Of a stretch of 64,000 nucleotides of DNA, positions 20,189-37,692 are shown piece after piece. The translations under genes and the position numbers were made by a program. The notes under the pieces are model-generated. The model worked only from the letters and a program-made list of their open reading frames with translations. It had not been told where the DNA came from and did not search any database. Numbering within the stretch: position 1 is the first letter of the stretch; the number at the start of each line of letters is the position of its first letter. Origin of the DNA: Cyclobacterium xiamenense (lineage in GTDB: Bacteria; Bacteroidota; Bacteroidia; Cytophagales; Cyclobacteriaceae); assembly GCF_009467825.1 (NCBI RefSeq), contig NZ_WIOK01000006.1, positions 1 through 64,000 on the forward strand, in the 5' to 3' direction.

Positions 20189-20215
20189 TCATGAACGTAC
20201 TTTAATCACAAGAAA

Positions 20216-20817: not shown

Positions 20818-20851
20818 CAAAAAATGGAGCTACTAGAGCTCCATTTTTTTG
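20818..20851. terminator. Bidirectional terminator between the two SusCD operons
   Basis: An 8-bp perfect stem ATGGAGCT/AGCTCCAT (20824-20831 with 20837-20844) with a 5-base loop is flanked by A-runs on the left and a T-run on the right, so it can act on both strands. It lies about 35 bases after the plus-strand lipoprotein gene and about 220 bases after the minus-strand amidase operon. Confidence 0.85.
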
Positions 20852-21061: not shown

Positions 21062-22627
21062 CTACTGCAACCCAATTTCGTCAAAACCTTCAGGTGCCCG
21101 TCGGTGCCGGGTAAGCTGCTCGTACGCATGAGAAATACTGAATAATTCTCCCTCACTAAAGGGCCTTCCAAGCAGCTGGAATCCGGCTGGATACCTTCCA
21201 TAGGAGTAGCCCATCGGCACGGCGATGGCTGGAAAACCCGTTGGTGGTGAAAGCTTTCCGCTGGTATCCCCCCGGGGACCATTAAGGTCACCGATCAATC
21301 TGGGCGGATAGGTAAAGGAGGGGTAGATAAGCGCGTCTAGTTCCAGGCTATCCATTACACCGAGGATTCGGTTCCGCAATTCCTGTCGCAACGCCATGTT
21401 TTTTTCCCAATCAGGATGCGCTTCGGGAACATCCACGTCATTTTGTGCATCGATCAAGCGCTTCTCTAAGTACGGGTGGTATTTTTCGGAATCAATGATT
21501 TCCTGCAGCGATTTGTAGGCAGCACTGTCTCCAAGACTGGCCAGGTAGGCATTGTAGTCTCGCTTCAATTGCCGGATGCGGGTCCCGGACTCGTTCAGGG
21601 AGTCCAGTTCCTCAATCCGGACGCTATCCAAAAGGATGGCACCACCCGCGCGCAAATCATCCAATGCAGTCATCATCAGGGAATAAACGCTGGTATCTGA
21701 TTCTGCTTTCGGAAAAAGCTGATGCAATACACCGATTCGCTTCCCGTTCAACGAACTCCCTTCAAGAAACGGCAGGTAGGAATCCGGCTTGGAAGCCACA
21801 CTGGCCTGCGTAACGGTATCTGCCTCATCGTATCCTGCGATGACATCGAATACGCGTACGGCGTCTTCAACCGTTCTGGCCATAGGACCACCAATGTCAT
21901 TGGTAAGCGCAAGCGGTACAATGCCATCCCTGCTGGTCAATCCCATGGTGGACCGTATGCCGACGAGGGCCTGATGGGAAGATGGTCCCCTGATGGAACT
22001 TCCGGTATCGGTACCTAATCCGACAACCGCTAAACTCGCAGCGATAGCCGCACCGGTACCCCCGCTGGAGCCGGCAGTGGTTCGGCGGGTATCGTAGGGA
22101 TTTCTACTGTACCCCGGCAGTACCGAACTAACGGAAAATTCTCCACTGGAGGCAAATTCCGCCAAATTCGCCTTGGCGATAATGATGGCGCCAGCCTCCC
22201 TTAGCCTCCTTACCTGAAACGCGTCATCGGGCGGGTAAGATTCTTTGAGCGCGAGCGTACCGTTACTGGTGGGCATTCCCTTTACATCGTAATTGTCTTT
22301 TACGATGAGGGGGATACCGTGCAAAGGTCCCACTTTTCCGCTTGCGGCGTATACGCTGTCCAGGTACCTGGCCGTTTCCATGGCCTCCGGATTCACGATG
22401 ATTATTGAATTGATGGAAGGCCCCTGTTTGTCAAACGCCTCGATTCGCCGAAGGTATCCTTCTACCAGGTATTGTGCGGTAACGTCTCCCTTCTCCATTG
22501 CCGCATGAATGCCGGCAATGGTGGCCTCAAGCAATGGAAAATTGGATTCGTTCGCATTTGGTGAGCTGCAGGCAAGGCCAACCAGTGAGAACACAAGCAT
22601 CACCTGCACTGATTTTTTTATAAACAT
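21062..22627 (-). CDS. Amidase-signature family lipoprotein (last gene of amide locus)
   Basis: This is an amidase-signature (AS) serine hydrolase that cleaves C-N amide bonds. Unlike the other four amidases of the locus it carries a lipoprotein signal (lipobox VGLAC, Cys20), so it is membrane-anchored. The triad is visible: Lys110 (PLIVKD), cis-Ser187 (AGSSGG) and nucleophile Ser211 (DTGSSIRGP), with the family's 24-residue Ser-Ser spacing. It belongs to a different AS subgroup from the Tat amidases, with SxTLALKES and IGGPMARTVEDA regions. The 521-residue length is normal. It starts 9 bases after the asparaginase-like gene and is the last gene of the run. The substrate is unknown. Confidence 0.9.
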   Translation of the reverse strand: MFIKKSVQVMLVFSLVGLACSSPNANESNFPLLEATIAGIHAAMEKGDVTAQYLVEGYLRRIEAFDKQGPSINSIIIVNPEAMETARYLDSVYAASGKVGPLHGIPLIVKDNYDVKGMPTSNGTLALKESYPPDDAFQVRRLREAGAIIIAKANLAEFASSGEFSVSSVLPGYSRNPYDTRRTTAGSSGGTGAAIAASLAVVGLGTDTGSSIRGPSSHQALVGIRSTMGLTSRDGIVPLALTNDIGGPMARTVEDAVRVFDVIAGYDEADTVTQASVASKPDSYLPFLEGSSLNGKRIGVLHQLFPKAESDTSVYSLMMTALDDLRAGGAILLDSVRIEELDSLNESGTRIRQLKRDYNAYLASLGDSAAYKSLQEIIDSEKYHPYLEKRLIDAQNDVDVPEAHPDWEKNMALRQELRNRILGVMDSLELDALIYPSFTYPPRLIGDLNGPRGDTSGKLSPPTGFPAIAVPMGYSYGRYPAGFQLLGRPFSEGELFSISHAYEQLTRHRRAPEGFDEIGLQ

Positions 22628-22636
22628 GGGGTTGGA

Positions 22637-24391
22637 TTAATGGGTGTGAAAAACTTCCTGATACAATGCTATCTTTTCTTTTATGGCCTCTAGCTCTTCA
22701 TCGGTCGGGTTTTGGGGATCTTTTGCCGGAGGATAAGCTCCAAACCGAAGTATACATGCCATCAGGAGTATGCGACCCTTGGTGGCGGTTATATTGTGTC
22801 CTTCAATAAAAAGGTTATTGGGATTGGTATCCATAAACCCGTCGGCGTTTCCCCGAGCTGCCTTCAGCACTGGAAACCCGTGCAGGGCAGCCAGCTCCAG
22901 CGCAGCATCCATCGGGGCAATCATGGAACCATAGGGCGCCATGCCCTCTCCCACAAATCCGGCAAGTGGGTATTTTTTCAGGTTATCGTTGATCCGGGCA
23001 AGAATATCTACCTCACTGGAAGGATCGTCGCTTCCATCGTCTTCTGTTTTCCAACGAGCACTCTTGTACAGGGTAACCATGGGCATGGATTCGGGAATGA
23101 GTTCTCCATCGGGTCCTTTTACAGCCACGTCTACGGTAGCAATAAGCCCGTTATCCGAAAGCGTAATGCCGGGTACGGATTTTGGAATCCGGCTAAAATT
23201 CACCTCGGACTGGTGGGTATGTTTTCTTACCGGAAGAAAGGTAAGTTTCGCCCCGTATCCCATGGAGCCGATCACGCCTCCAAAGCCGCCAGTGACCACG
23301 TATCCTCCGGGTTTGGCGTCGCCTTTTTGCACTTCTCTGGAGGAAAAAATGGTCTGATCCTGGATCATGACAGAGCCCACCTTACTGGCGCCGTCATCCC
23401 CTGCCCATACCCCGGAAGCGATATATTGAATCCCATCGATGATATTTTGATCCCCATCTGCGCTCACCAGTCCCCGCATGCGCTGTGCGGCATTGAAAAC
23501 CAGGGGAGATTTGGAATCGATGAGCAGCCCCATCCAATACGCCGTGTTTTCGATACTTGGACTTCCTTCGAGCCAGATGGAGCCATCGTACTCACCCGAC
23601 GCCATTACGCGCTGTACCATATTGGTAGCCCTGGCTAGTTGCATTCGGTTTTGAGAGGCCCCGTAAGGGCCATAGGTGAAGAAATCCTTTCCCAATGTCT
23701 CGGGCGCAATATCCCCTTCTCCGACATCCGTTCGTAGCTCTGCAGGCAACCCTTTGGTATACCCTCCAGCGGGCGCAGGTCTGAAAAAGTCGTAGTCGGC
23801 AATTCCATGGATATTTCCTCCCGCACGCTCGATTTCTTCAAATATCCGGGATGCATTGGGATAGAATGTCTGCCTGGACTCAGAAAAAGGAGCCCCCGGA
23901 TAAGCGGCGGTACCGTCCCAGGGCTGACCATCTGCCTGAACCGCCATGTAGGGCAGGGGGTAAAGCCCGTCTTCCGGCTTTAACGCTATCTTCAATACCG
24001 GCTTGTCGGAGGGGTCTTTCCGCGTCTGGCGAAATTTCCCATCTGCGCCGACAAATCCGTCAGGCGCACCGTATAGTTCCCTCACGTCGCTTTCCAGCGG
24101 ATGGGCCGTGTACATTTCCACGTAGAGCGTGACCGGGGCCGCTAAACGCTGGTAGTACAAGCGGTCGTACGGCAATGGTTCTCCCTGTTCGTTTCTCAGA
24201 AGGGGCAGGTCGTTTGCCTCCCTTGCCTTATTGCTGGTGATCAGCGGATAGCTGTTTTGAATGGTCGCAGTGGGCCCGGAGAAAATGGCGATCCTGGGTT
24301 TTTCTTGCGAAAAGCCCTCGCCGAGGCACAGTACAAACAAAGCGAGCAATATTCCTATCGGTTTTTTATGAAAGTGGTGAGTGGTTGTCAT
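22637..24391 (-). CDS. Secreted asparaginase-fold protein with altered active site
   Basis: This 584-residue protein is exported by Sec (hydrophobic segment ending GEGFSQ). It can be aligned by eye with L-asparaginase/glutaminase: an N-terminal PRIAIFSGPTATIQNS at the TGGTIAG position, DGSIWLEGSPSIENTAYWMGLL at the HGTDTxEET position, SADGDQNIIDGI, and the C-terminal KGRILLMACILRF helix. The second catalytic motif reads EGSPS instead of HGTDT, so the usual Thr-Asp pair is Ser-Pro. That argues against standard asparaginase chemistry. The start at 24391 (MTTTHH) leaves a 14-base gap after the acetamidase gene; an ATG 10 codons upstream would overlap it. Function is inferred only as an amide-related hydrolase or binding protein. 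Confidence 0.75.
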   Translation of the reverse strand: MTTTHHFHKKPIGILLALFVLCLGEGFSQEKPRIAIFSGPTATIQNSYPLITSNKAREANDLPLLRNEQGEPLPYDRLYYQRLAAPVTLYVEMYTAHPLESDVRELYGAPDGFVGADGKFRQTRKDPSDKPVLKIALKPEDGLYPLPYMAVQADGQPWDGTAAYPGAPFSESRQTFYPNASRIFEEIERAGGNIHGIADYDFFRPAPAGGYTKGLPAELRTDVGEGDIAPETLGKDFFTYGPYGASQNRMQLARATNMVQRVMASGEYDGSIWLEGSPSIENTAYWMGLLIDSKSPLVFNAAQRMRGLVSADGDQNIIDGIQYIASGVWAGDDGASKVGSVMIQDQTIFSSREVQKGDAKPGGYVVTGGFGGVIGSMGYGAKLTFLPVRKHTHQSEVNFSRIPKSVPGITLSDNGLIATVDVAVKGPDGELIPESMPMVTLYKSARWKTEDDGSDDPSSEVDILARINDNLKKYPLAGFVGEGMAPYGSMIAPMDAALELAALHGFPVLKAARGNADGFMDTNPNNLFIEGHNITATKGRILLMACILRFGAYPPAKDPQNPTDEELEAIKEKIALYQEVFHTH

Positions 24392-24405
24392 GGTGGAGGT
24401 TGGAT

Positions 24406-25554
24406 TTAGGAAGAATACCAATAGTCAAACGTTCTATTGGTGAATATAGACTTGGGAATCATGCCGTGAACGCCCTCCGTCCGGTCCACTACTTGCGTAA
24501 TTTCAAAGTCGACGGCTGTACTCGATATGGACATGGCTTCTTCATAGCTAAAGCCAAGATGCTCGTGAATAAATCGAATCGACTCCGCCAGTGCCTGCTT
24601 CATGGCTTCATCCAAATCGGGGTTGAGGCCGAAGACGATAAAGTGATCGGGCGTTTCGGCTAGGGGCATGCTGATGGTCTTTTTATGAATGACAAACTCC
24701 GCCACCAGAATCATCGATGTCTCGATGGCGGTGCCACTGACCTCACCGTTTCCCTGTGCGCCGTGTGCATCCCCGGTTGTGAAAAGCCCCCCTTCCACCG
24801 AGACCGGCAAAGTAAGCGTCGTTCCTTTGATCAGGTGCTTTAAATCCAGGTTGCCTCCGAAAAAATCCGGCGGTATGGAACTTACCCTACCGGTTTCCGG
24901 GGGCGGGGAAAGGGCCATGACGCCCATAAAAGGTTTCAAAGGGATTTCCACGCCTGGGAGTAACTCAGCCGACGTTCGCTTCTTGTTGTATTTATACACG
25001 AAGCTCTCGCTGTTTTTAATCTCTTGGGGTATGTCCTCTCTCCCGGGTCGTACATGGTTTACCCCGTACTCGCTTCGGAGGATGACATCATGAATTCGGA
25101 TTTCGATGCTATCGCCCGGCATGGCTCCCTCGATAAAAACCGGTCCGGTAAGCATGTGACCTCTGATGCCGGATGGCTCAGGGGGTACGTTTTTTATGAT
25201 CTCAACAAGCTCCTTTGCATGGTCATCGTAAGCCAGATTGTTTTCTTTGAAAAAGGATTCCGGGTCCTCCCGCGGAACTCCCGAAGTACTAACGGTATGT
25301 ATTTCCACAATCTCCCCCTCCTTTACGGTAAGCTTGGGCGGTACATCTGCTCCGAAATAGCCCCAGACCATATTTTCCGGATAGGAGCGCAGCACCTTAT
25401 CTACCTTTGGCCCTAGCCTTTTGCCAGATTCACGGGTAATTGAGGAGGTTAGTCGATCCTTTCCCGACAACAGGCCGGGCAGGGCGGTGAAGGCAAATGC
25501 ACCGCCCACAAGCGATTTTTCAATAAACCCCCTTCTTGAATTATTCTTTTCCAT
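24406..25554 (-). CDS. Tat-exported acetamidase/formamidase family protein
   Basis: This FmdA/AmdA-family amidohydrolase would release ammonia from short amides such as formamide or acetamide. The 382-residue protein has a twin-arginine signal (NSRRGFIEK then a hydrophobic stretch, residues 5-28). The family's core follows: GDSIEIRIHDV near 140 and the metal-site motif GDAHGAQGNGEVSGTAIE near 265. Most characterised members are cytoplasmic, so Tat export is unusual. It lies 48 bases after the amidase at 25603 and 14 bases before the asparaginase-like gene, inside the amide operon. The family assignment is firm; the substrate could be a larger amide. Confidence 0.88.
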   Translation of the reverse strand: MEKNNSRRGFIEKSLVGGAFAFTALPGLLSGKDRLTSSITRESGKRLGPKVDKVLRSYPENMVWGYFGADVPPKLTVKEGEIVEIHTVSTSGVPREDPESFFKENNLAYDDHAKELVEIIKNVPPEPSGIRGHMLTGPVFIEGAMPGDSIEIRIHDVILRSEYGVNHVRPGREDIPQEIKNSESFVYKYNKKRTSAELLPGVEIPLKPFMGVMALSPPPETGRVSSIPPDFFGGNLDLKHLIKGTTLTLPVSVEGGLFTTGDAHGAQGNGEVSGTAIETSMILVAEFVIHKKTISMPLAETPDHFIVFGLNPDLDEAMKQALAESIRFIHEHLGFSYEEAMSISSTAVDFEITQVVDRTEGVHGMIPKSIFTNRTFDYWYSS

Positions 25555-25602
25555 TGGTCATTTTTGTTAGTGGTTGTCGTTCAAAAATTAGTGTGTCGGT
25601 TG

Positions 25603-27183
25603 TCAAATCATCGGTCGTCTCCAACCCCCGGATCTACTTTCCAGGTATTGTGCCACGGCCAGGGAAACATCTTCCCGCCAGGGATGGGCTACGCATTGCA
25701 CCCCTATGGGAAGCGTACCATTTGTGTCACACCTCACCACGGTAACCGGCCATCCGGTGGTATTGTAGGGTCCGCAGTAGCTCGCGCCGGGTTTACTGCT
25801 GGTCCACTCGTTTCCAAGACCCTGATCGATTTCCTCAGCGGGAGTAGCCGTTGTCGGACAGAGAATGACGTCGTATTGTTGAAACCATTGAAGCATCTTC
25901 GTCCTGTTTTTGTCCTGAAGCGTCAATAATTCAGAATAGCGATCTGCCGAAATGGGGCTCCCGCTGTCGAGCCTGTTTTGAATGGATTCGCTAAGGGTAT
26001 TGCTTCCATGCAGGTCTCCGGCTCGTTTTAAAAATGCCCAGGCATCCCCCGCAACCAACTCTCGTCGTATTTCCCCCAACTCAGTAAAGATATCCAACGG
26101 CATGTCCTCCATCACTTCAGCTCCTGCTTCTTCCATCCATTTGGCAGCCTGACGGACGGTATTTTGTGTTTCCTCGGCCGTCTCTGCAATCAAATTTGAG
26201 GGGTAATAGGCGACCTTCAGTCCTTTCATGTCAATGAGTGCCGGATCCGGCCAGGGCATCGGCACCACGGCTGCATCCCGACCATCCGGGCCACTCATCA
26301 GCGGAGTGAGCAAAATCAGGTCCTCCACCCGGCGGGCCATTGGTCCTGGCTGTTGCCAGGAATCAAACACGCCCCCGTAATCCACAATGTGTCCGGTACG
26401 GGGGCAACGGACGGATGTAGGCTTGATACCCGCTATTCCATTCGTGCTGGAAGGCAACCGCACGCTCCCCCCCCAGTCGGTACCAATATCGAATGCGGCA
26501 CCCCCCGCTGCAATAATCGACCCCGCTCCGCCACTACTGCCGGAGGTTCCTCGTTTCAGGTCGTAGGGATTCTTGCTTAGCCCATAGATGATGTTCCCTG
26601 TCGTTCGCACGCCTCTCATCCCCCCGCCGGCTAGCGTAAACTCTGGTGTATTCGTTTTTCCGAGCAGAATGGCTCCATTTTCTCGCATTCGGGCCAAAAC
26701 GGTGGCATCCTTTTTACCCACGAAATCAATTCTGCCGAGGGTACCGCCGGTACTGATCACGCCTTCCGCTTCAAAGGAATCTTTGAGCGTCATTGGAATG
26801 CCGTGAAGAGGCCCCATGTACTGCTTTTTCCGCAACGCCGCATCCGCGGCTTTGGCTTCATCCATTGCCCGATCGAAACATTGCATCACGACGGCGTTAA
26901 GGTGGTAATTCACATCTTCTATTCGATCGATGTAGGCCTGGGTCAGCTCTACGGACGAGACCTTCTTGGTTCGTATCATTTCCGAAAGCTTTACCGTTGA
27001 CATAAAGATCAACTCGTCCGTTTTATCCGTTGACACCAGGCGCCGGGCAGAAGATTTTTCACTGGCTGCAGCAAGCGTCGAGGTGCTAAGACTCATCGCG
27101 GCGGCACTACCCGCGCCTATAAGTGTTAAAAATTTACGACGGGACTGACTGGTTTCGGATTGGGCTGCTTTATATTTTTTCAT
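25603..27183 (-). CDS. Tat-exported amidase-signature enzyme (fourth in locus order)
   Basis: This AS-family amide hydrolase has 526 residues. A strong Tat signal is present (SQSRRKFLTLIGAGSAAA, residues 12-31). The triad is intact: Lys134 (MTLKDS), cis-Ser216 (SGSSGG) and nucleophile Ser240 (DWGGSVRLP). It is closest by eye to the amidase at 28879-30471; both share GTDWGGSVR, TNGIAGIKPTSVR, PRTGHIVDYGG and WQQPGPMARRV-type stretches, so these two are recent duplicates. It lies 96 bases after the amidase at 27280, the widest gap between enzyme genes of the run, and 48 bases before the acetamidase gene. Periplasmic location is inferred from the signal. Confidence 0.93.
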   Translation of the reverse strand: MKKYKAAQSETSQSRRKFLTLIGAGSAAAMSLSTSTLAAASEKSSARRLVSTDKTDELIFMSTVKLSEMIRTKKVSSVELTQAYIDRIEDVNYHLNAVVMQCFDRAMDEAKAADAALRKKQYMGPLHGIPMTLKDSFEAEGVISTGGTLGRIDFVGKKDATVLARMRENGAILLGKTNTPEFTLAGGGMRGVRTTGNIIYGLSKNPYDLKRGTSGSSGGAGSIIAAGGAAFDIGTDWGGSVRLPSSTNGIAGIKPTSVRCPRTGHIVDYGGVFDSWQQPGPMARRVEDLILLTPLMSGPDGRDAAVVPMPWPDPALIDMKGLKVAYYPSNLIAETAEETQNTVRQAAKWMEEAGAEVMEDMPLDIFTELGEIRRELVAGDAWAFLKRAGDLHGSNTLSESIQNRLDSGSPISADRYSELLTLQDKNRTKMLQWFQQYDVILCPTTATPAEEIDQGLGNEWTSSKPGASYCGPYNTTGWPVTVVRCDTNGTLPIGVQCVAHPWREDVSLAVAQYLESRSGGWRRPMI

Positions 27184-27252
27184 GGATTAGCATGGTTAAA
27201 TCGTTGTTCAATTGATTGATGGTTGGTGAAGCCGTCGCGGGAATTGGGATCG

Positions 27253-27278
27253 GTCACCCGGGAGCGAAGGGCTCCGGT
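27253..27278 (-). other. GC-rich hairpin between two amidase genes
   Basis: The stem GGAGC/GCTCC (27261-27265 with 27271-27275, loop 5) is extended by CC/GG with one bulge. It sits directly after the stop of the amidase at 27280 and has no U-tract. It may protect or process the mRNA rather than terminate it; a chance pairing is possible. Confidence 0.3.
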
Positions 27279-27279
27279 A

Positions 27280-28794
27280 TTACAAATTTTCGGGTTTGGA
27301 ATAGCCCCCAAATGCATTTTCCAGGACACCGGCAACCGCCAGAACTTTATCTTCCGTCCAGGGCTTACCGACAATCTGAATCCCCAAAGGCAATCCTTCA
27401 TCGGAAGTACCTGCGCGCACCACTGCTGCCGGCCATCCGGTGGCATTGTATTCGGAGGTGTACCAGTGGCCCGGAAAGCGTTCTGCGTCTACCTTCATGG
27501 CGGCAGTGGAAGTAACCGGGCACAGCAAAATGTCGTAATCGTCCATAAATTGGAGCATCTTGCTCTTGAGGGTATCGATCTCTTCTACCAATCTGGAATA
27601 CACGTCGGCAGATACTGTCTCCCCCGAAATATTCAGATTTGGGGAGATTACCTTGGTCCCGCATTGTTTGATTAAGCGCTTGAGATGGGCTTTCCCATCA
27701 GCGCTATTCAGTTCAGAACGTTTTTCAGAAAGTTCTTGAAGCACTGCCGGGCGGTCTGCCACTACGCTTTTCACCGATGATTTAAGGCTTTCGGCGCAGT
27801 CTACCACCATCTTTTTGATCTCAGGAATTGGTTCCGCAATGTCATTGGTGGTATAATAGGCGATTCGCAGTTGCGAAAGGTCTACCTCCGCAGGGTCAGC
27901 GAGTGGAACGGGACTGATGCTGGCATCCAATTGATCCGGACCAGAAATAATCGAGAGCAACAAGTACAGATCTTCCACTTTTCTCGCCATTGGACCCGGC
28001 TGTTGGTAACTTCCGAACCGATCCCCGTAACCCGGTAAATGGCCGGTTTGGGGGATCCGTCCACTCGTTGGTTTGATACTGGCCAGGCCACAGACATGGG
28101 CCGGTGCGCGCACACTCCCACCGGAATCGGTGCCGATGTCAAAGTAGGATCCACCCGCTGCCAAAATAGCGGCTGCCCCACCACTACTCCCCGACGGGTG
28201 GCGGCTGAGATCGTACGGGTTTAGTGTCTGTCCGTAAATCAGGTTGGTCGTCAGCGAGGACATGGTGAATTCAGGCGTGTTGGTCTTACCCAGTAAAATC
28301 GCTCCTTCCTTTTTGAGCCTTGCCACAACGGTAGCATCGGTACCCGGCATGTAATCTTTACGGCCCATGGTGCCGGCAGTCGAAATAATTCCGGAGGTAT
28401 CGAAGGAATCCTTGATCGTCATGGGTACTCCATGGAGTAAGCCGAGCGGTTTTCCTGCCTTAACGGCTGCATCTGCCGCTTTGGCCTCGAGTAGTGCGCG
28501 CTCCCCTGCCACCTGAACCACGGCGTTGATTTTCGGGTTTACCTCTGCAATCCGCTCCAGACAACGGCTTACTACCTCTTCACTGCTGATCTCTTTATTG
28601 CGGATCATCTCTGCCACTTTCGTCGCGGACATGTACAGGAGTTCGTCGGTGGCATCGTTCGATGTAAATTCCCTCCGTGGAGGCACGACGCCCTCCGGAA
28701 GCAGTTGACCAAAGGCCGGAAGTACCGAGCCCAGTGATCCGATTCCAAGCGTGGCAATAAATTTTCTTCGGTTGTTGGTGGTTTGTTTTTTCAT
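27280..28794 (-). CDS. Tat-exported amidase-signature enzyme (third in locus order)
   Basis: This AS-family amide hydrolase has 504 residues and an N-terminal Tat-type signal (NNRRKFIATLGIGSLGS). The triad is present: Lys128 (MTIKDS), cis-Ser203 (SGSSGG) and nucleophile Ser227 (DSGGSVRAP). After the nucleophile it reads AHVCGLASIKPTSGRIPQTGHLPGYGD, clearly different from the other paralogues (which have GIAGIKPT and HIVDYGG), so its acyl-binding pocket probably differs. It has an 84-base gap to the previous gene and is followed by a GC-rich hairpin. The start MKKQTTNNRRKF places the RR motif correctly. Confidence 0.93.
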   Translation of the reverse strand: MKKQTTNNRRKFIATLGIGSLGSVLPAFGQLLPEGVVPPRREFTSNDATDELLYMSATKVAEMIRNKEISSEEVVSRCLERIAEVNPKINAVVQVAGERALLEAKAADAAVKAGKPLGLLHGVPMTIKDSFDTSGIISTAGTMGRKDYMPGTDATVVARLKKEGAILLGKTNTPEFTMSSLTTNLIYGQTLNPYDLSRHPSGSSGGAAAILAAGGSYFDIGTDSGGSVRAPAHVCGLASIKPTSGRIPQTGHLPGYGDRFGSYQQPGPMARKVEDLYLLLSIISGPDQLDASISPVPLADPAEVDLSQLRIAYYTTNDIAEPIPEIKKMVVDCAESLKSSVKSVVADRPAVLQELSEKRSELNSADGKAHLKRLIKQCGTKVISPNLNISGETVSADVYSRLVEEIDTLKSKMLQFMDDYDILLCPVTSTAAMKVDAERFPGHWYTSEYNATGWPAAVVRAGTSDEGLPLGIQIVGKPWTEDKVLAVAGVLENAFGGYSKPENL

Positions 28795-28878
28795 GGGTGT
28801 TTGGTTTTAGGTATCTGTGGTCAGCATTAGGTCTTGATGACGGTGCGTATGGGTCCATTTTTTTTAAAAGTGAAACGG

Positions 28879-30471
28879 CTAAATGGGAGGCATTTTCCAT
28901 CCTCCTGATTTTTGCTCCAGGTAACTTGCCACAGCAAGTGCCACGTCTTCCCGCCAGGGCTGGGCGACTACCTGTACACCGATTGGCAAGCCTTCGGCAT
29001 TTTCTCCACAGCGCACGACCGCACCGGGCCATCCACAGGTATTGAACGGTTTGGTATAGCTTTCTCCCGGATTGTCCATGTACTTGGATGACTCGGAGAA
29101 TCCGCTGTTAATATCCCCCGCAGGCGCGTTCGTCACCGGACAGAGGAGTACATCGTAATCGGAAAACCATTGCAGCATCTTGCTTCGGTTGGCATCTTGC
29201 ATTTCCAATAGCTTGGTATACCGTGCCGTTGAGATTGTCTCGCCTTGTTCCGACAACCGTTGCCGGAGACTTGCGCCGTAGGTCTTGGATCCGGCGCGCT
29301 CTGTTGCTCGTTTGAGCCACTGCCAGCCATCACCGATGATCAAATCACGTCGGATTGTGCCCAACTCGACCAAGAGGTCTCTTGGGCAATCCTCCGTTAC
29401 GGACAAACTGACTTCTTCCATCCATTTGGCGGCTTTTTGTACCGTGTCCCGCGTGGCTGGATCGGTTCTGGCTATCCCATTTTCCGAGAAAAAAGCAACC
29501 CGCAACCCGGCAATATCGACCGTTTTATAATCGGGCCAGGGCATGGGAATCACGGCAGCATCTTTGAAATCCGGGCCTGCCATGAGAGGGGTGAGCAAAT
29601 CCAGGTCCCTTACAAACCGCGCCATGGGGCCAGGTTGCTGCCAGGCATCGAAAAGCCCTCCATAATCGACAATATGTCCGGTACGGGGGAGCCGTACCGA
29701 GGTAGGCTTGATACCAGCTATCCCGTTGGTACCAGAAGGTCCTCTCACGCTGCCTCCCCAGTCGGTACCAATATCAAAGGCTGCTCCTCCTGCGGCCACA
29801 ATGGCTCCTGCGCCTCCACTACTTCCGGAAGTCGTTTTGTCGAGGTCATAAGGGTTCTTACTGATACCGTAAATAATATTATTGGTGGAATTAACTCCCA
29901 ATACAGCTCCAATAAGCGTGAATTCGGGGGTATTGGTTTTTCCCAGTAGAATCCCTCCCTGCTGCCGTACCCGGGCGACAACCGTGGCATCTGCATCCGG
30001 TACAAAATTCATTTTGCCGATCGTCCCGCCGGTACTTACCACGCCTTCGGTCATGAATGAGTCCTTTATTGTAAGCGGTACGCCATGAAGAGATCCGGTT
30101 GAATTCCCTTTGGCTAAGGCCTGATCCGCTTTTTTCGCTTCATCAAGCGCCCGATCAAAACACTCCATGACCACGGCGTTTAACTGGTAATTGACTGCAT
30201 CAATACGATCGATGTACGCCTGTACCACTTCGAGTGCCGACACTTCCTTTGTTCGGATCATCTCTGCCAGTGCGGTTACGGATTTGTAATGAATTGATGC
30301 CGGCTCCGCCTTGGTGCCAAATTCCCGGATCAGCAGGCGTTTATCGAGTCCCTTTGCAATGTTTGGCAGGTACGTAGCCCCGATGGTCCCGACAGCTACT
30401 TTTTCTATAAAGGACCGTCTGGAAACCGTTTCAGCGGTCTTTGTTGCGATGTATTTTTTTACCTTATTCAT
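28879..30471 (-). CDS. Tat-exported amidase-signature enzyme (second in locus order)
   Basis: This AS-family amide hydrolase has 530 residues from the ATG at 30471 (MNKVKKYI). An open frame continues upstream to 30663, but that leader overlaps the preceding amidase gene and would bury the signal peptide, so I reject it. The Tat signal is near-consensus (VSRRSFIEKVAVGTIGA, residues 16-32). The triad is Lys136 (LTIKDS), cis-Ser217 (SGSSGG) and nucleophile Ser241 (DWGGSVRGP). It is the likely closest paralogue of the amidase at 25603. It lies 38 bases after the first amidase and 84 bases before the third. Confidence 0.93.
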   Translation of the reverse strand: MNKVKKYIATKTAETVSRRSFIEKVAVGTIGATYLPNIAKGLDKRLLIREFGTKAEPASIHYKSVTALAEMIRTKEVSALEVVQAYIDRIDAVNYQLNAVVMECFDRALDEAKKADQALAKGNSTGSLHGVPLTIKDSFMTEGVVSTGGTIGKMNFVPDADATVVARVRQQGGILLGKTNTPEFTLIGAVLGVNSTNNIIYGISKNPYDLDKTTSGSSGGAGAIVAAGGAAFDIGTDWGGSVRGPSGTNGIAGIKPTSVRLPRTGHIVDYGGLFDAWQQPGPMARFVRDLDLLTPLMAGPDFKDAAVIPMPWPDYKTVDIAGLRVAFFSENGIARTDPATRDTVQKAAKWMEEVSLSVTEDCPRDLLVELGTIRRDLIIGDGWQWLKRATERAGSKTYGASLRQRLSEQGETISTARYTKLLEMQDANRSKMLQWFSDYDVLLCPVTNAPAGDINSGFSESSKYMDNPGESYTKPFNTCGWPGAVVRCGENAEGLPIGVQVVAQPWREDVALAVASYLEQKSGGWKMPPI

Positions 30472-30509
30472 GCATGTATCTTTTGGTATATAGGGGTTTT
30501 CGGATAAGA

Positions 30510-32057
30510 TCACATCGCTGGCATTTGCCAACCACCCAGTTCGTCCTCCAGGTATTGGGCGACTGCCAACACCTTGTGATCCTGAAAAGGCTGTCCGACT
30601 ATTTGAACCCCAATAGGTAAACCGTCTTTGCTTGTTCCGGCTCGTACTACCGCCGCCGGCCAACCGGTGAGGTTAAAAATACCCATGTACCCGTAGGCTT
30701 CGGGTGAACTGGCGGATCTTTCAAACACCGTAGGATTGGGGGCAGCACCGTCGAAATGTACCGGGCAAATGAGGATGTCGTATGCCTGCATCCATTGCAG
30801 CAGCTTGCTACGACAAGCGTCAAGTTTTTCTACCAACGCGGTAAACTCCCTGGATGGGATCGCGGTGGACGGGTCTGCCAGCCGGAGTAGGGGATGGGTT
30901 TGCTTGGTTCCGAATTTTTCGGCCAGCCGATTCACCCATGCCCTGCCATCAGCACTGAAAAGGTCCTGACGCACCTGTTCTGCTTCCTGGAATTGGCTAA
31001 CAGGCGCATCTTCTTTAAGGCGTATTCCGGCCCCTTCCAATGCCGCAACCGCACCGTTGATTGCCTTTTTGGTCTCCTCCGAGCAGGCCTTCGTGCTGCC
31101 GTGTTCGACAAACCAGGCGTACCGCAGGTCCGCTATACGAATACTGTCCGGATCGGTCCAGGGAACCGGGTGAATGGCCGCGTCACGTTGGTCAGGCCCC
31201 ATGATAATGGGCAAAATTAGTTTCAGGTCTTCTACATACCGGGCCATCGGACCGAGCACCTGATACGCATCAAACAATCCACCATAATCTACAATGTGGC
31301 CCGTTCTGGGAACCAGGCCCGTGGTGGGTTTTATCCCGGCGATCCCATTAAAGTGAGCTGGCCCGCGAATACTGCCGCCAAAATCCGATCCGATGTCGAA
31401 AGGTGAGCCACCCGCCGCCACAATGGCACCTGCCCCTCCACTACTTCCTCCCGGGCTGTAGCCTTCTTTGTAGGGATTGCTCGTCATGCCGTAGACCAGG
31501 TTAGCGGTGGTTCCGGATAGCGTAAATTCGGGGGTGTTGGTTTTTCCCAGGAGAATCGCCCCCTGAGCCCGAAGCCTGGCAACAATCGTGGCATCCTCCG
31601 CCGGCATAAACTCTTTTCTTCCCAGCGTTCCGCCAGTACTCACCACGCCTGCGGTTTCCAATGAGTCTTTGATGGTCATGGGTACCCCATGCAATGCGCC
31701 CATGGTCCTGCCGGCTGCCAACATCCTATCTGCCTTTTCGGCCTCTTGTAGCGCCCGCTCTTTACAGGTCAGAACCACGGCGTTGATCGCAGGATTCACT
31801 TCTTCCATCCGCCGATATACGGCGTTTACAAGCGCTACGGAGGAAATTTCTTTTTCGCGGATCATTTGCGCCAGCTGCACGACCGATGCCGCAGTGACTT
31901 CGTCCACGACCCGATTGGGTTGGTAATAAGAAACCGAGTCGTTCTTCCGGGATGTTGGCATAATAGGGGAGGCCATCAACCCTAGCCCCCCCTTACCAAA
32001 CAACACAAAAGACGAACGTATAAAGTCTCTTCGGTTATTTTTTTTATTAAAAATCAT
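30510..32057 (-). CDS. Tat-exported amidase-signature enzyme (first after SusD)
   Basis: This AS-family amide hydrolase of 515 residues begins with a Tat-type signal (NNRRDFIRSSFVLFGKGGLGLMA). The triad is intact: Lys130 (MTIKDS), cis-Ser205 (GGSSGG) and nucleophile Ser229 (DFGGSIRGP). The stretch AHFNGIAGIKPTTGLVPRTGHIVDYGG mixes features of the other three paralogues. It starts 27 bases after the SusD stop, the tight spacing expected for cotranscription with the transporter genes, and tying the whole amidase array to SusC/SusD. Substrate unknown; the AS family includes peptide amidases, aryl-acylamidases, nylon-oligomer hydrolases and fatty-acid amide hydrolase. Confidence 0.94.
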   Translation of the reverse strand: MIFNKKNNRRDFIRSSFVLFGKGGLGLMASPIMPTSRKNDSVSYYQPNRVVDEVTAASVVQLAQMIREKEISSVALVNAVYRRMEEVNPAINAVVLTCKERALQEAEKADRMLAAGRTMGALHGVPMTIKDSLETAGVVSTGGTLGRKEFMPAEDATIVARLRAQGAILLGKTNTPEFTLSGTTANLVYGMTSNPYKEGYSPGGSSGGAGAIVAAGGSPFDIGSDFGGSIRGPAHFNGIAGIKPTTGLVPRTGHIVDYGGLFDAYQVLGPMARYVEDLKLILPIIMGPDQRDAAIHPVPWTDPDSIRIADLRYAWFVEHGSTKACSEETKKAINGAVAALEGAGIRLKEDAPVSQFQEAEQVRQDLFSADGRAWVNRLAEKFGTKQTHPLLRLADPSTAIPSREFTALVEKLDACRSKLLQWMQAYDILICPVHFDGAAPNPTVFERSASSPEAYGYMGIFNLTGWPAAVVRAGTSKDGLPIGVQIVGQPFQDHKVLAVAQYLEDELGGWQMPAM

Positions 32058-32084
32058 GCGTTTGTCTTTGTTTAAATTGGCAAC

Positions 32085-33563
32085 TTATCGATCCCACCAC
32101 ACGCGGGTCAAAAGATCATCCGAACCTTGTCTGGCCACTGCTTGCTCATAGTTCGCTTTATTCAAATTAATCTCACTAGGTGGGTAACCTTTGCGTCTGG
32201 GTATGCCATCGATAACTCCGTCTCTTGCTACTTCCAACTCCGGGTATTGAAGCCGTCTCCATTCACACCAGGACTGAACGCCCTGCATGTAAAAAGAAAT
32301 CCACTTCTGATTGCCAATGGAACGCATGGGGTTCGTCGTGTCATAGGTAACTGCTTCCTGCGCTAAATAATCGGCAACTGCAGATGGATCCGAAATACCC
32401 CACTGCTCCATGGATGCGGTGATCGCCTCTATGTAAAATTCCGAGGGACTGCCGGAAATCCAGCCTCTTTCCGCTGCTTCAGCCTTGATAAACGCAACCT
32501 CCGCGTAAGACATAATGGTAAAAACTGAAGTTGGCTGGAGGATAGTTTCGGTATTTGGCCAAGAAACGGCGAAGTCACTGATGGCACTACCGGATGCTCG
32601 GTCCAGTCCGACCGGCTGTCCGATGTATCCGCCTCCCAGCGTTTGATTTATTGCAGGATCGGCATATCTTTCCAGTCGCGGATCGTTTAACGATTTGAGC
32701 ATGTCAACCAGTGTGCTGGCGATTCCGTAATTGGGAACACTCAATTCGTACCGGAAAAACCAAGGATTGTTATTGGGTTGGGATTCTAAAAATTGATAGA
32801 AGGCATTGTCGTCAGTTGATGTCATGGGGCCCGCTGCTACCGCCTCGGACAGCGCGGACGCAGCCACATTGGGTGCCACATTTGAAAGCCGGAGTGCTAC
32901 CCTCATTTTTAGACTATTGGCAAACTTGTACCACTGTTCCATATCCCCTCCAAAAATAATGTCGCCGTCAATCGATCCATCGGCGGCATTGATCATTGCT
33001 GCCGCCTCCGACAGTTCCTTAATCAAATCCAAATAGATCGTTTCCTGATCGGTATAGGTGGGTAGGGAAAAAGCATTTCCCTTTAAGGCCTCCTGGTAGG
33101 GAACATCCCCCCACACATCGGTAATGTTTTGATAGGCCCAAGCCTTCAGAATCCTTGCCACTGCGATTTGGTTGTGGTTAGGTCCGGACAGCGCCGCATT
33201 GACCATGGTCTCTTCGTTGGAATTTAAAAGGATGACTTCTTCCAAATCTCTCAACCCATTGGTGTAAAAGGTTGAAAAATCGCCCTCTACCGTTGCATAA
33301 ATATCATCAAAACCGCCCCGCAAATTTGCCATCTGCTGCGCATAAATCATGGCGGGAAGCCCGATGCCGTTAAGCTGGTCGTGGTTGCCAAATAGGTCTG
33401 CTACTAATTCTCGCTGTGCCCCGGTCAGCAGACTCGAGGTGGGCACTTCCAGCGGCTGGTTGGGATCAATATTTAATTCCTCAAAGCCCTCGGTACAAGC
33501 AGCCGACCAAATCAGTAGGCCGCCGAGTAATAGGATGGTAGGTATATTTTTTATCGTTTTCAT
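32085..33563 (-). CDS. SusD/RagB family nutrient-binding lipoprotein (amide locus)
   Basis: This surface lipoprotein is the partner of the SusC at 33654. I start at 33563 (MKTIKNIP), giving 492 residues with a clean lipoprotein signal (WSAAC, Cys23). ATGs at 33572, 33590 and 33638 would add a charged leader without signal character. The mature N terminus TEGFEELNIDPNQP and the helix ILKAWAYQNITDVWGDVPYQEAL are typical of the SusD_2-type nutrient-binding family. The gene is 90 bases after SusC and 27 bases before the first amidase. By context it should capture the amide-bearing substrate at the surface. Confidence 0.92.
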   Translation of the reverse strand: MKTIKNIPTILLLGGLLIWSAACTEGFEELNIDPNQPLEVPTSSLLTGAQRELVADLFGNHDQLNGIGLPAMIYAQQMANLRGGFDDIYATVEGDFSTFYTNGLRDLEEVILLNSNEETMVNAALSGPNHNQIAVARILKAWAYQNITDVWGDVPYQEALKGNAFSLPTYTDQETIYLDLIKELSEAAAMINAADGSIDGDIIFGGDMEQWYKFANSLKMRVALRLSNVAPNVAASALSEAVAAGPMTSTDDNAFYQFLESQPNNNPWFFRYELSVPNYGIASTLVDMLKSLNDPRLERYADPAINQTLGGGYIGQPVGLDRASGSAISDFAVSWPNTETILQPTSVFTIMSYAEVAFIKAEAAERGWISGSPSEFYIEAITASMEQWGISDPSAVADYLAQEAVTYDTTNPMRSIGNQKWISFYMQGVQSWCEWRRLQYPELEVARDGVIDGIPRRKGYPPSEINLNKANYEQAVARQGSDDLLTRVWWDR

Positions 33564-33653
33564 TTGAGTCATTCTTAGATGTTGGAACATGTCGGTATCA
33601 GGCAGATTTTTGAGATAAAATCCGATTTTCCTGTCCAATAAAGTAAATGGATG

Positions 33654-36600
33654 TTACAGCTTGATGTTGATGTTGAAACCAATCATACGGGGAGCTGGCA
33701 ACGATGCTCCCTCCAAGCCCTGAACGTTACTTGATCCATAGGCGATTTCCGAGGGATCAATGTGGGGCACGTTGCTGTGCAGCAAGGCCACGTTTCGAGA
33801 GAACACGGATACCCGAAGCCCATTGATAAAGAGGTTGCGCAGCATTCCGCTGGGAACGTTATAGCCCAGGCTGATTTCTCGTAATTTGATGTAGGAGGCA
33901 TCGTATACGGATAATGCATCCAGGCTATACAGTTGCTTCAGGTAGTTCTGTGCTTCCAGGTATACCGTATTGGGCTCCCCATTTTCAAAAACCGCATCCG
34001 CTCGGATACCTCCGCCTTCGGACACGGGATTTCTTTTGGGAACTCCCCGGTCATTGTCTCCTACCGACTCAATGAACTGCCCATTGGCAATGCCATTTTG
34101 AACGGTTTCCGACCAAAAACTACCCCCTGATTGGAAATCGATCAAGGCACTCAACGTGATCCCGCGGTACGTGAAGGTATTGGAAAAGCCACCCGTTACG
34201 TCCGGTAAAATACTGCCGACTACCTCGCCTGGATTCCGAAGATAAAAGCCATTGCTACCAACGATCGGTTTTCCGGTCTCCTCGTGGTAGATGACATTTG
34301 GCGTGATAATCGTACCGTAAGGCTGCCCTACCGTGGCATTGACGGAGTTGGTACCGTCTCGTCCACCCAACTCGAAATTATCCTGACCTTCTGCCAGTTC
34401 CAGCACCCGATTTCTATTACGCGCCAGGTTCAGGTTTACATCCCAGGAAAAATCATTTCTTTCGATAGGGGTGCCACTCAGCATGACCTCGATGCCTTTG
34501 TTTTCCATTTCTCCCGCATTAACGATGAGCGACTGAAAACCCGTGGTCGAGGAAACCGGAAGTGCCAGGATTTGATTGAAGGTATTTACCTTGTAGACCG
34601 TAAAATCCAGACCTATTCTATTTTCCAAAAAACGTAAATCCAACCCTGCTTCCAAATTCGACACAATTTCCGGCTTCAGGTTGCTGTTTCTCAAAACGTC
34701 ATCTACCGTGAACACCGAGGTATTGGCGTAGGGGTCCCCGTTGGCATAGGTGTTGATCAAGCGGTACGGATCCGTGTCATTCCCCACCTGGGCCCAACCC
34801 AGACGCATTTTGCCGAAAGAAATGAAATCAGCTCCCGTCATCAGGTTCGAAAAAACGAAACTGCTTGACACGGCGGGGTACAGGTAGGAATTGTTGTCTA
34901 CCGGTAAAGTAGAAGACCAATCGTTCCGAAGCGAAGCCTCGAGGAACAGGAAATCCCGGTAGCCCAAATTACCGCTTGCGTAAATACTGTGTACCTCTCG
35001 TTCGGATTTGAAATCCCGGATTTCTGGCCGCTGGAGGGAGGCTACCAGGTTGTAAAAATTCGGCACACTCAAGCCACCCTGCGTCCGGGTGTAATTATTG
35101 GTGAACGTATTTTTCCGGATATTGCCCCCAAAGGTAACTCCCAGACTGAAATCATCCCCGAATTCGGTATTGTACTGGCCGAGAAGCTCGAAATTATCCT
35201 CCCGAAAATTGTACAAGTCTTTTTCGTAAGCATTCTGAAGGTAGCCTCCGATTGAAGCCCGGTCTTCGCGCACGTCGGTGTAGAAATCGGTTCGGGCAAA
35301 CAAGGTTACTGAAAGCTCCGGAAGGATCTGGTAGGAGATGTTGATGTTTCCAAAAACCCGGTCCTTTAAATCGTTATTATAACTCTCGAATAGCGTAAAA
35401 TAGGGATTGTTGTTGTAGCTCTGTTCCGTGTGCCTCCCCAGTCCTTGTGTATTCCAGGTCATGTGGTAATACCGGTCCGATTGATAATTTCTTAACCGGG
35501 CGGGATCAATTTGACGCTGGGTCCAGGCATACCAGTATGTCAACACGTTTACAGGCCGCTCCGGAGACCAGTCGCCCGTTGCGGGCCGACCGAGTGCCTC
35601 GGTACGTATGTAGTTAATCTTGGCTCCTGCGGAAAACTTGTCGGTTATTTGCGTATTGGCACTTACCGCAATTGTATTTCTATTGAGCGAACTATTGGGC
35701 ATGACCCCGGTTTGATCGAGGTTGGTATAGGAAAGTCTGAAAGAGCTCTTATCATCGCCTCCGCTAATGGATACGTTATTTGATAAAGTAACGCCGGTTT
35801 CAAAGAAATCTCTGATATTATTGGGAGTAGCCTGCCAGGGTCGCACTTCTCCGTAATTTGGCTCGCCCGGATACATGCTGTCCCAATGCCTTACGGGCGT
35901 TCCGTCAAAACGAGGTCCCCAACTGTTGTTGGCATTCGTATTGACCACTTTATAAGTCAGTCCATCCAGCGGATCCACGACTTCCTCAAAATCCAAAGAA
36001 AATCCTCCGCCGTACTCATTTTGCATTTCCGGCAATAAAAATACGTTGCTAACCATCGTGGAGGAATTGATGCTAACGCCGATACCCTTGTTTTTTGCAC
36101 CGCTCTTCGTTGTGATAAGGATGACGCCATTTGAAGCCCTGGACCCGTACAATGCGGAAGCACTTGGTCCCTTCAGCACCGAAATGGACTCCACATCGTC
36201 GGGGTTAATATCCTGAGCCGCATTCCCATAATCCCGACCCCCATTTCCTGACACCTGATCCGTGGAGTTGTAGTTGGAGTTATCGATCGGAGTACCATCC
36301 ACCACGAAGAGCGGTTGGTTATTGCCGGAAATGGAATTGATTCCCCGTATGGTGATACGTGAGGAACCGCCAATATTGCCGGAGGAATTCGATATCTGAA
36401 CACCGGCAATTTTACCTGTAAGCGAATTGACGATATTGGTTTCCTTGGCTTCATCCAAGCCACGGGTATCCACCTGCTGTACGGTATAACCCAGGGCACG
36501 TTCGTCTCGTTTAACGCCCAATGCAGTCACCACTACTTCGGAAAGTGCCGTTTCTTCCGGCGTCAGTGAAATCGTTATTTCACTTTGGTTACCGATAGCG

Positions 36601-36890
36601 ACTTCTTTTTTGTTGTAGCCAATAAACGAAACTTCCAATTCCTTTTCTGATTCGGACAGGGTCAGGGAAAATTCCCCGTTTATGTCCGTCGCCGCTCCTT
36701 TGGTGGTACCTTTTACGAGCACGCTGGCTCCTGGAATCGACATTGCGTTTTCATCAACTACCTTGCCTTTCACTGTCAGACTTTGCGCCTGAACCGAACC
36801 AAGGGATAAAAAACCGATTAGCAAGACCAACCAGATAAACGAGTTCCTCCCACCGGAACGCCGTTCCGGGGCATGTGTAAAATTTTTCAT
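33654..36890 (-). CDS. SusC/RagA family TonB-linked outer membrane protein (amide locus)
   Basis: This outer-membrane importer has 1078 residues. The signal peptide ends near residue 36 (LGSVQAQS). A carboxypeptidase-regulatory-like domain follows (KVVDENAMSIPGASVLVKGT; DINGEFSLTL), then the plug with the SusC/RagA signatures ITIRGINSISGNNQPLFVVDG and LKGPSASALYGSRASNGVILI, and a barrel ending FNINIKL. It heads a nine-gene minus-strand run that ends at 21062. A full promoter match with 19-base spacing lies about 240 bases upstream, implying a long leader. The run contains only amide-hydrolase-family enzymes, so an amide-containing solute is the inferred cargo. Confidence 0.95.
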   Translation of the reverse strand: MKNFTHAPERRSGGRNSFIWLVLLIGFLSLGSVQAQSLTVKGKVVDENAMSIPGASVLVKGTTKGAATDINGEFSLTLSESEKELEVSFIGYNKKEVAIGNQSEITISLTPEETALSEVVVTALGVKRDERALGYTVQQVDTRGLDEAKETNIVNSLTGKIAGVQISNSSGNIGGSSRITIRGINSISGNNQPLFVVDGTPIDNSNYNSTDQVSGNGGRDYGNAAQDINPDDVESISVLKGPSASALYGSRASNGVILITTKSGAKNKGIGVSINSSTMVSNVFLLPEMQNEYGGGFSLDFEEVVDPLDGLTYKVVNTNANNSWGPRFDGTPVRHWDSMYPGEPNYGEVRPWQATPNNIRDFFETGVTLSNNVSISGGDDKSSFRLSYTNLDQTGVMPNSSLNRNTIAVSANTQITDKFSAGAKINYIRTEALGRPATGDWSPERPVNVLTYWYAWTQRQIDPARLRNYQSDRYYHMTWNTQGLGRHTEQSYNNNPYFTLFESYNNDLKDRVFGNINISYQILPELSVTLFARTDFYTDVREDRASIGGYLQNAYEKDLYNFREDNFELLGQYNTEFGDDFSLGVTFGGNIRKNTFTNNYTRTQGGLSVPNFYNLVASLQRPEIRDFKSEREVHSIYASGNLGYRDFLFLEASLRNDWSSTLPVDNNSYLYPAVSSSFVFSNLMTGADFISFGKMRLGWAQVGNDTDPYRLINTYANGDPYANTSVFTVDDVLRNSNLKPEIVSNLEAGLDLRFLENRIGLDFTVYKVNTFNQILALPVSSTTGFQSLIVNAGEMENKGIEVMLSGTPIERNDFSWDVNLNLARNRNRVLELAEGQDNFELGGRDGTNSVNATVGQPYGTIITPNVIYHEETGKPIVGSNGFYLRNPGEVVGSILPDVTGGFSNTFTYRGITLSALIDFQSGGSFWSETVQNGIANGQFIESVGDNDRGVPKRNPVSEGGGIRADAVFENGEPNTVYLEAQNYLKQLYSLDALSVYDASYIKLREISLGYNVPSGMLRNLFINGLRVSVFSRNVALLHSNVPHIDPSEIAYGSSNVQGLEGASLPAPRMIGFNINIKL

Positions 36891-37131
36891 GATGTTGTTA
36901 GTGGTTAAGTAGTGAAAATAATCTACCCCTACGCGTACAGAGATCCTAATTCAGTATGCGGGTAGCAAATATTCAAATGGTTACTTTGGGGGAAGGTTAT
37001 TCTAAGGGATACTATCTTGGGCGCATGTTGGGATGTGGCGCTTCACCAATGGCCTCAAACAAATAAGGCCCTGATTGGAACACCATTCAGAATGTTGGGT
37101 TGAATTTGTCAGCTGCTAACGTCTTCGGAAC

Positions 37132-37162
37132 CAAATATATATGCCGACCCTGTAATAACAAA
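37132..37162 (-). promoter_or_regulatory. Bacteroidota-type promoter for amide locus SusC
   Basis: The minus strand carries TTTG (37159-37162), 19 bases, then TATATTTG (37132-37139). This matches the -33 TTTG and -7 TAnnTTTG consensus at standard spacing. The -7 element is about 240 bases upstream of the SusC ATG, predicting a leader of roughly 230 bases. Confidence 0.6.
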
Positions 37163-37664
37163 GAAATCCCAATATTATTTTTTTAAACTAATAGGCAAAA
37201 ATATAGTTAAAAATAATATTTTAAGACATTTTCATATACTTTAAATTTACATTATTAAACTTCTAAATCTTTTTATTACTATTTTTACTATATTTAAATC
37301 AATTAAAATTTCATTCGATTATATTTACACTGGTGCATTCTATGGCTATTTTACAAACCTGTTTTTTTATTTTATACAAATTTTTTACGTATAGTCATTA
37401 ATTTTAAAACCTATTTTTTTGATTCTATTTATTTTTATTGATTTTGCAGGTAATTTATTAACTAATAATAGGCTAAAAATCTTTTTTTCTAATTTTGGCG
37501 CATAAGAACGTTTTTTATTTCTTATTTCTTCATATTTCAAAATTTAAATTGATCGAAAGGCCATTATGTTTTTCAATACCTACCTATTTTACTTTCAAAA
37601 CTATTTTTTAGGACGATAACAGCCTGAGGGTTCATTACCACTGTGCCTTGCCTTAATCTTGTCC

Positions 37665-37684: not shown

Positions 37685-37692
37685 CTTGACAG

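Follow-up and report, generated by a model that had tools for sequence, protein, structure and literature searches.

Paired SusC and SusD proteins (SusCD) carry ligands too large for porins, and importers of this kind have mostly been assigned to glycans, with a few assigned to peptides. Two kinds of described system are among the closest to the locus considered here: in the accessible text of PMC7782687, oligopeptide ligands are described for BT2261-64 and RagAB, and in that of PMC13209695, acetamidase/formamidase operons place FmdA and amide hydrolases beside an ATP-binding cassette (ABC) importer. We analysed a 64,000-nucleotide stretch of Cyclobacterium xiamenense DNA (RefSeq assembly GCF_009467825.1, contig NZ_WIOK01000006.1, positions 1 to 64,000; hereafter the window), in which, at 21062-36890, a SusC/SusD pair heads five amidase-signature proteins (AmiA to AmiE), an FmdA/AmdA-family protein (FmdA) and a divergent asparaginase-fold protein (AsnL). 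The nine genes are one inherited, mobile cassette; they form a unit by inheritance, because their order is kept in seven genomes of two genera and two further genomes have an empty site. We lean towards reading the cassette as a mobile utilisation locus through which a bulky, amide-rich and probably peptide-like compound would be imported and hydrolysed in the periplasm.

A nine-gene cassette in the Cyclobacteriaceae

The preliminary description of the window had given nine minus-strand genes in this interval, separated by gaps of 9-96 bases, and both statements stand after correction of the gene starts. Transcription runs in the order SusC, SusD, AmiA, AmiB, AmiC, AmiD, FmdA, AsnL, AmiE. The features of the cassette and its edges are:

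33654..36890, minus strand: SusC/RagA TonB-dependent outer-membrane importer; 1078 aa; TIGR04056, TIGR04057, plug and CarbopepD_reg_2 domains
32085..33563, minus strand: SusD-type lid; PF12771; solved relatives; lipobox-like IWSAAC; open reading frame (ORF) reaches 33638
30510..32057, minus strand: AmiA, amidase-signature; PF01425 333.5 bits; twin-arginine leader NRRDFI
28879..30471, minus strand: AmiB, amidase-signature; PF01425 306.3 bits; twin-arginine leader SRRSFI; frame opens at 30663
27280..28794, minus strand: AmiC, amidase-signature; PF01425 337.4 bits; twin-arginine leader NRRKFI
25603..27183, minus strand: AmiD, amidase-signature; PF01425 292.7 bits; twin-arginine leader SRRKFL
24406..25554, minus strand: FmdA/AmdA-family protein; PF03069 110.8 bits; twin-arginine leader SRRGFI
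22637..24391, minus strand: AsnL, divergent asparaginase-fold; PF00710 36.2 bits, partial; ORF reaches 24421
21062..22627, minus strand: AmiE, amidase-signature, putative lipoprotein; PF01425 297.2 bits; nearest peptide amidase
36891..37953, minus strand: AT-rich upstream region, with a promoter-like match inside
20819..20849, listed on the plus strand: terminator-like stem at the downstream cassette edge; A and T runs on both flanks
37954..37978, minus strand: terminator-like stem at the upstream cassette edge, after the upstream OmpA-family gene

The start of AmiB was placed at ATG 30471 because the 594-aa AmiB frame overlaps AmiA. The start of AsnL is probably ATG 24391, and the candidate starts of SusD are ATG 33590, 33572 and 33563.

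The same nine-gene order is found in five further Cyclobacterium genomes, namely G123, G153, G174 (C. jeungdonense, L021), C. plantarum (L019/L111, where the stretch begins at SusC residue 64) and Cyclobacterium sp. Bin_11 (L020/L112), and in G103, which belongs to another Cyclobacteriaceae genus. The concern that the association might be peculiar to a single genome is answered by its presence in these seven genomes. Across carriers the cassette proteins are 66-91% identical, and between genera 66-83%. Within Cyclobacterium the cassette is flanked by an OmpA-family gene on one side and a gene for a 189-aa protein on the other wherever the flank was read (the OmpA side in the window, G153 and G174; the 189-aa side in the window, G123, G153, G174, L019 and L020). 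Neither of these two genes turned up in the 50 kb of G103 that were read, so the cassette there occupies a different site. On the OmpA side, positions 37996-44324 of the window hold a block of OmpA-family, PorP/SprF and CHU_C (type IX secretion) genes that is found in carriers and non-carriers alike.

Cyclobacterium genomes G067 and G195 have empty sites, with 139 and 82 bases, respectively, between the aligned ends of the two flanking genes; each site has one terminator-like stem, and AsnL has no match. These two genomes have two PF01425 matches each, compared with seven in each of six distinct carriers. One or more PF01425 matches (E 1e-30) are present in 141 of 148 Cyclobacteriaceae genomes; the maximum of seven is reached only by the window genome, G123 and G103, all of them carriers, and six matches are found in G002 and G085.

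A strict stem pattern occurs once in each empty site and once at each cassette edge in G153 (L057, 6093-6117; L058, 3351-3375). In the window the two edge stems differ, and the downstream one alone fits a looser pattern. The edge stem is a possible recombination target, and we read the downstream stem of the window as a bidirectional terminator. The aspartyl-tRNA synthetases of the two non-carriers share 85 and 86% identity with that of the window, and those of G153 and G174 share 89 and 90%, which would be consistent with one gain inside Cyclobacterium. Base composition lends no support to a foreign origin, as third-position GC is 0.52-0.58 in the nine genes and 0.53-0.62 in nine neighbours. 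About 1.1 kb without a long gene lies upstream of SusC. A Bacteroidota-type promoter-like match is present there at 37162-37132; it was set aside as evidence, since two such matches in the whole window against 2.43 expected are not above chance.

The importer and the enzymes

Pfam and NCBIfam searches bear out the assignment of SusC/SusD, five amidase-signature enzymes and an acetamidase/formamidase in the preliminary description. SusC matches TIGR04056 with 643.7 bits (cut-off 368.25) and TIGR04057 with 61.6 bits (cut-off 46.2) in NCBIfam, and its best solved relative is BT2264 (E 1.7e-131). SusD follows directly and matches SusD-like_2 in Pfam (PF12771, 374.2 bits); its IWSAAC is lipobox-like, and the strict lipobox pattern is not matched. 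A second, convergent SusC/SusD pair lies with the 189-aa gene at 15266-20785 of the window, and in the counterpart of this segment in C. jeungdonense only the 189-aa gene was found. The same libraries gave no match in the nine genes to glycoside hydrolase, peptidase or sigma/anti-sigma families, as had been described, and these general libraries gave none to carbohydrate-active enzymes of the type found in polysaccharide utilisation loci (PULs).

Five of the seven PF01425 matches in the genome fall inside the locus. The five proteins score 292.7-337.4 bits (Pfam cut-off 27), and all of them have the motifs [ILV]KD, SSGG and GxDxG[GS]S, which we take to be the Lys-cisSer-Ser catalytic motifs. 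The aliphatic amidase of acetamidase/formamidase operons presumably belongs to another family than these. AmiA to AmiD are 44-60% identical to one another, with AmiB and AmiD at 60%; AmiE shares only 26-29% identity with them. The best solved relative of AmiE is peptide amidase 1m21 (E 6.5e-75, residues 29-516), and it scores 374.5 bits against the PRK08137 equivalog, below the cut-off of 534. AmiA, AmiD and a profile of AmiA-D match GatA, the nylon-oligomer hydrolase NylA, urethanases and fatty acid amide hydrolase about equally, and because so many amidases score alike, the substrates of AmiA-D cannot be read from their sequences.

FmdA exceeds the Pfam cut-off for PF03069 (FmdA_AmdA; 110.8 bits, cut-off 27) and falls below that of the formamidase equivalog NF045496 (55.5 bits, cut-off 500). 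Its best solved relative, 3b9t, is named as a twin-arginine translocation (Tat) pathway signal protein.

The asparaginase-fold protein of the preliminary description holds as a fold but not as an ordinary asparaginase. The Pfam Asparaginase match of AsnL is weak and partial (PF00710, 36.2 bits, cut-off 22.5), and its score against type II asparaginase TIGR00520 is below the cut-off (51.1 bits, cut-off 314.3). Alignment of the AsnL family onto ordinary asparaginases with hhalign gave a probability of 99.4 and supported motifs 2 and 3. Motif 1 was not aligned with the asparaginase TGGTIAG; we read it as the counterpart of that motif, followed by an insert of about 200 residues. In an alignment of 15 members, which leaves out a split Neorhizobium copy (L026) and a Lichenicola fragment (L027), 133 columns are invariant, the asparaginase HGTDT is replaced by [EQ]GSPx in every member, the first motif reads G[PS][TN]ATI, and K366 is invariant at the position of Lys162 (in asparaginase numbering, where the Thr-Asp pair is T89-D90). 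We regard AsnL as a distinct subfamily. An AlphaFold model from a five-row alignment had a mean predicted local distance difference test score (pLDDT) of 37.2 and was not used.

The preliminary description placed the enzymes in the periplasm, and their leaders agree with this: the locus enzymes are predicted to be exported. AmiA-D and FmdA, whose leaders in the window have the form RRxF[LI], carry a twin-arginine leader in each of the four genomes audited (the window, L019, L021 and G103), and TatC is present in the genome of the window (205.1 bits). AsnL has a Sec-type leader, judged by eye. Cys20 of AmiE lies in a lipoprotein-like context that does not match the strict lipobox pattern.

Related enzymes outside the Cyclobacteriaceae

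High-score matches to AsnL were found in five of 196 Cyclobacteriaceae genomes, the window genome among them; the other 13 of the 18 matches are weak (E 2e-8 to 2e-4) and lie in frames of 342-377 aa, about as long as ordinary asparaginases. The window genome is the sole match among 395 genomes of the phylum (E 1e-30) and 247 of the class (E 1e-40), draws that partly overlap the Cyclobacteriaceae draw. A Nevskia sp. metagenome-assembled genome (MAG), from the Gammaproteobacteria, is the sole match among 349 genomes of its phylum.

This MAG has 42 PF01425 matches, 23 of them on the 68-kb contig G796:C198 (L029-L032). We count 18 PF01425 genes on the contig, one of which was missed by the gene caller. 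AmiC- and AmiD-like enzymes there have 53-58% identity, and the contig also has AmiE-like enzymes, two FmdA, AsnL, two S9-family hydrolases and a membrane-fusion and AcrB-type pair. AmiA-D-type enzymes (E <=1e-110) are found in 15 of 85 genomes of the order, the MAG included, and each of these has at least two side by side. Fifteen regions were fetched from the 14 non-MAG genomes, leaving out listed clusters on G1323:C14, G1308:C27 and G1304:C237. AmiE-like enzymes are present in 13 of the regions, resistance-nodulation-division (RND) or membrane-fusion genes in 10, FmdA in eight, asparaginases also in eight, and AsnL in one (G1291), so that AsnL accompanies these gammaproteobacterial clusters in two genomes. 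The asparaginase labels of G1297, G1322 and G1291, that of one FmdA, and the RND labels of the MAG and G1297 were borne out by Pfam; the others are from BLAST. SusC and SusD of the window had no match at 1e-6 among the gene calls of the 15 regions, a weak absence given heuristic calls and contig edges. A polytopic membrane protein of about 570 aa precedes the asparaginase-FmdA-amidase cluster at L092:2957-4687, and similar proteins are found in G1322, G1291, G1292 and G1323; the G1297 copy has no Pfam, NCBIfam or significant PDB match.

A 67-row tree was built from 16 Cyclobacteriaceae enzymes, five from the MAG, 42 from other members of the order and four outgroups; its outgroup branches are long, and it omits order members missed by the gene caller. 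In this tree AmiA clusters with gammaproteobacterial A-like enzymes (99/97). AmiB and AmiD form a sister pair (100/99) that joins gammaproteobacterial D-like enzymes (97/88), while AmiC stands apart and not with the gammaproteobacterial enzymes that BLAST labels C-like. The A and B/D classes, at least, were therefore already separate by the time they came to be common to the two phyla.

Seven plasmid records match AsnL, four of them with 88-94% coverage. AmiD had no plasmid match at E 1e-90. Plasmids of Rhizobium tumorigenes (L024) and R. rhododendri (L025) have three consecutive amidases that share only about 29-31% identity with those of the window, together with adjacent FmdA and AsnL, an SBP_bac_5/oligopeptide-type ABC importer and a divergent urease operon. 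AsnL also occurs, as five copies, in four of 149 genomes of the family of G1131, which we take to be rhizobial because the G1131 urease is 86% identical to the R. tumorigenes plasmid urease. In G1148, FmdA-AsnL adjoins the same oligopeptide-type importer. The remaining rhizobial copies lie near luciferase-like monooxygenases or other catabolic or transport genes; AsnL thus occurs without FmdA nearby as well, and these contexts do not fix its substrate.

Several further observations concern these relatives. Genes for monooxygenases of luciferase-like or NtaA type are close to AsnL in Agrobacterium vitis, Neorhizobium and G1220 (L023, L026, L049), and the Neorhizobium copy of AsnL is split across two frames. 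Relatives of the urease, 85-86% identical, occur in G1131 and G831 with amidase and ABC transporter genes. A 64-residue AsnL-like fragment (L027:12001-12192, 53% identity) is encoded close to RidA and LysR-type genes on a plasmid of Lichenicola cladoniae. The urease link had raised the idea of methylenediurea as a substrate, which was dropped, as the literature using the term shows no title on such genes.

Proposed function and comparison with known systems

Consideration of the importer class and the predicted leaders suggests how such a locus could work. SusD would capture the ligand, and SusC would bring it into the periplasm with TonB energy. There the Tat-exported AmiA-D and FmdA, the Sec-exported AsnL and the lipoprotein AmiE may cut different amide bonds or side groups, yielding ammonium and small acids or amines. 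A single transcript, import, export, periplasmic hydrolysis and a division of labour are all inferred. We expect the ligand to be too large for porins because the importer is of the SusCD class. The leaning towards a peptide comes from the nearness of AmiE to peptide amidase, from the importer of oligopeptide type found in some rhizobia and, as a weak point, from the likeness of SusC to BT2264.

Several observations weigh against this proposal. The locus has no dedicated peptidase, and neither AmiA, AmiD nor the AmiA-D profile has a close solved relative. The likeness of SusC to BT2264 was rejected as evidence for peptides, since the neighbouring SusC2 is nearly equal (E 1.3e-122) and the match is therefore not specific. 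AsnL has Ser-Pro in place of the asparaginase Thr-Asp pair, and because that canonical pair is missing, any place for it as the seventh of the amide hydrolases is conjecture. FmdA adjoins AsnL in only three of nine near full-length rhizobial copies (four plasmid, five genomic), and the gammaproteobacterial versions often adjoin RND efflux genes, which fits detoxification too.

A bolder form of the proposal, which we hold only tentatively, would make the locus a new SusCD class, an amide utilisation locus: a horizontally mobile cassette whose SusCD importer is joined to a cross-phylum multi-amidase module that takes apart a natural poly-amide, for example a modified or non-ribosomal peptide, in the periplasm, with AsnL using a Ser-Pro variant of the asparaginase site for undescribed chemistry.

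Periplasmic detoxification is a serious rival, and it stays one because of the RND genes, although we judge it unlikely. Here the exported amidases would disarm toxins that are amides or peptides, such as non-ribosomal peptides, with SusCD as an entry or scavenging route. The efflux genes in two-thirds of the gammaproteobacterial regions are consistent with it, as are an RND operon (OEP, AcrB-type, HlyD-type) at 131-5654 of the window, about 15 kb from the cassette, and relatives of two genes of that operon about 9 kb from the G103 cassette (L034). Several paralogues of one fold likewise suggest a range of targets. However, the nine-gene cassette has no pump, an importer would increase exposure, and on two rhizobial plasmids an importer and urease stand in place of a pump.

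Scavenging of nitrogen from small amides or ureides is somewhat less probable again. FmdA, AsnL and the amidases would then free ammonium from short amides or ureido compounds, and FmdA-AsnL does stand beside the urease operon on the two rhizobial plasmids, one of which has annotated cysteine hydrolases too; other AsnL neighbours are luciferase-like monooxygenases and M20-family and dihydroorotate-dehydrogenase-family enzymes. Against this, small amides do not need SusCD, given the size of ligand these importers are known for, and FmdA lies far under the formamidase equivalog cut-off.

We find it improbable that the substrates are synthetic or lipid amides (polyamide or urethane oligomers, N-acyl amino acids) and not peptides. 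The AmiA-D profile covers almost the whole length of NylA (E 3.1e-62) and matches urethanases and fatty acid amide hydrolases as well, but GatA has the top score and many amidases are alike, so the profile does not discriminate. For synthetic compounds, the 17-34% divergence of the cassette between genera would suggest too great an age. A chance neighbourhood of unrelated SusCD and amidase genes is rejected, as the nine-gene order recurs in seven genomes at two genomic sites and is missing as a block from two empty ones.

If the preferred reading of an imported, peptide-like amide is right, a conserved, movable SusCD locus in which almost every enzyme is an amidase would widen the known diet of SusCD importers and offer a genetic handle on the use of amide-form dissolved organic nitrogen by Bacteroidota. 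Related enzymes occur in the Cyclobacteriaceae, in the Nevskia order and partly in rhizobia, which provides several organisms for the substrate hunt, and AsnL offers an alteration of a well-known active site that can be put to the test.

The literature searched, mostly open-access, contained no description of a SusCD and amidase-signature locus, or of a Cyclobacterium amidase with SusD. Within that literature, the novelty claimed for the composition in the preliminary description is supported for the SusCD system, but not for the enzymes as a set, much of which is common to the gammaproteobacterial clusters. Taken together, our data show that the locus is real, conserved and mobile, and that it represents a SusCD utilisation locus of variant type, part of whose enzyme set is common to more than one phylum; its function is putative.

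Like PULs, BT2261-64 and RagAB, the locus has SusC and SusD heading degradative enzymes on the same strand, for which export is predicted. It differs from these in having five amidase-signature proteins, FmdA and AsnL, with Tat-type leaders on five of the seven enzymes. AmiE resembles peptide amidase 1m21 in sequence and departs from it as a putative lipoprotein. AsnL aligns with type II L-asparaginase over most of the domain and keeps the Lys162-type position, but has about 200 extra residues before the main match and Ser-Pro for Thr-Asp. The acetamidase/formamidase operons, as far as the accessible text describes them, have neither SusCD nor a multi-amidase set. We know of no name for the gammaproteobacterial clusters of asparaginase, FmdA, tandem amidases and RND genes. 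They share with the cassette AmiA-like enzymes, the B/D-like classes, AmiE-like enzymes, FmdA and occasionally AsnL, and differ from it in their ordinary asparaginases and RND genes and in gene calls to which SusC and SusD are unmatched.

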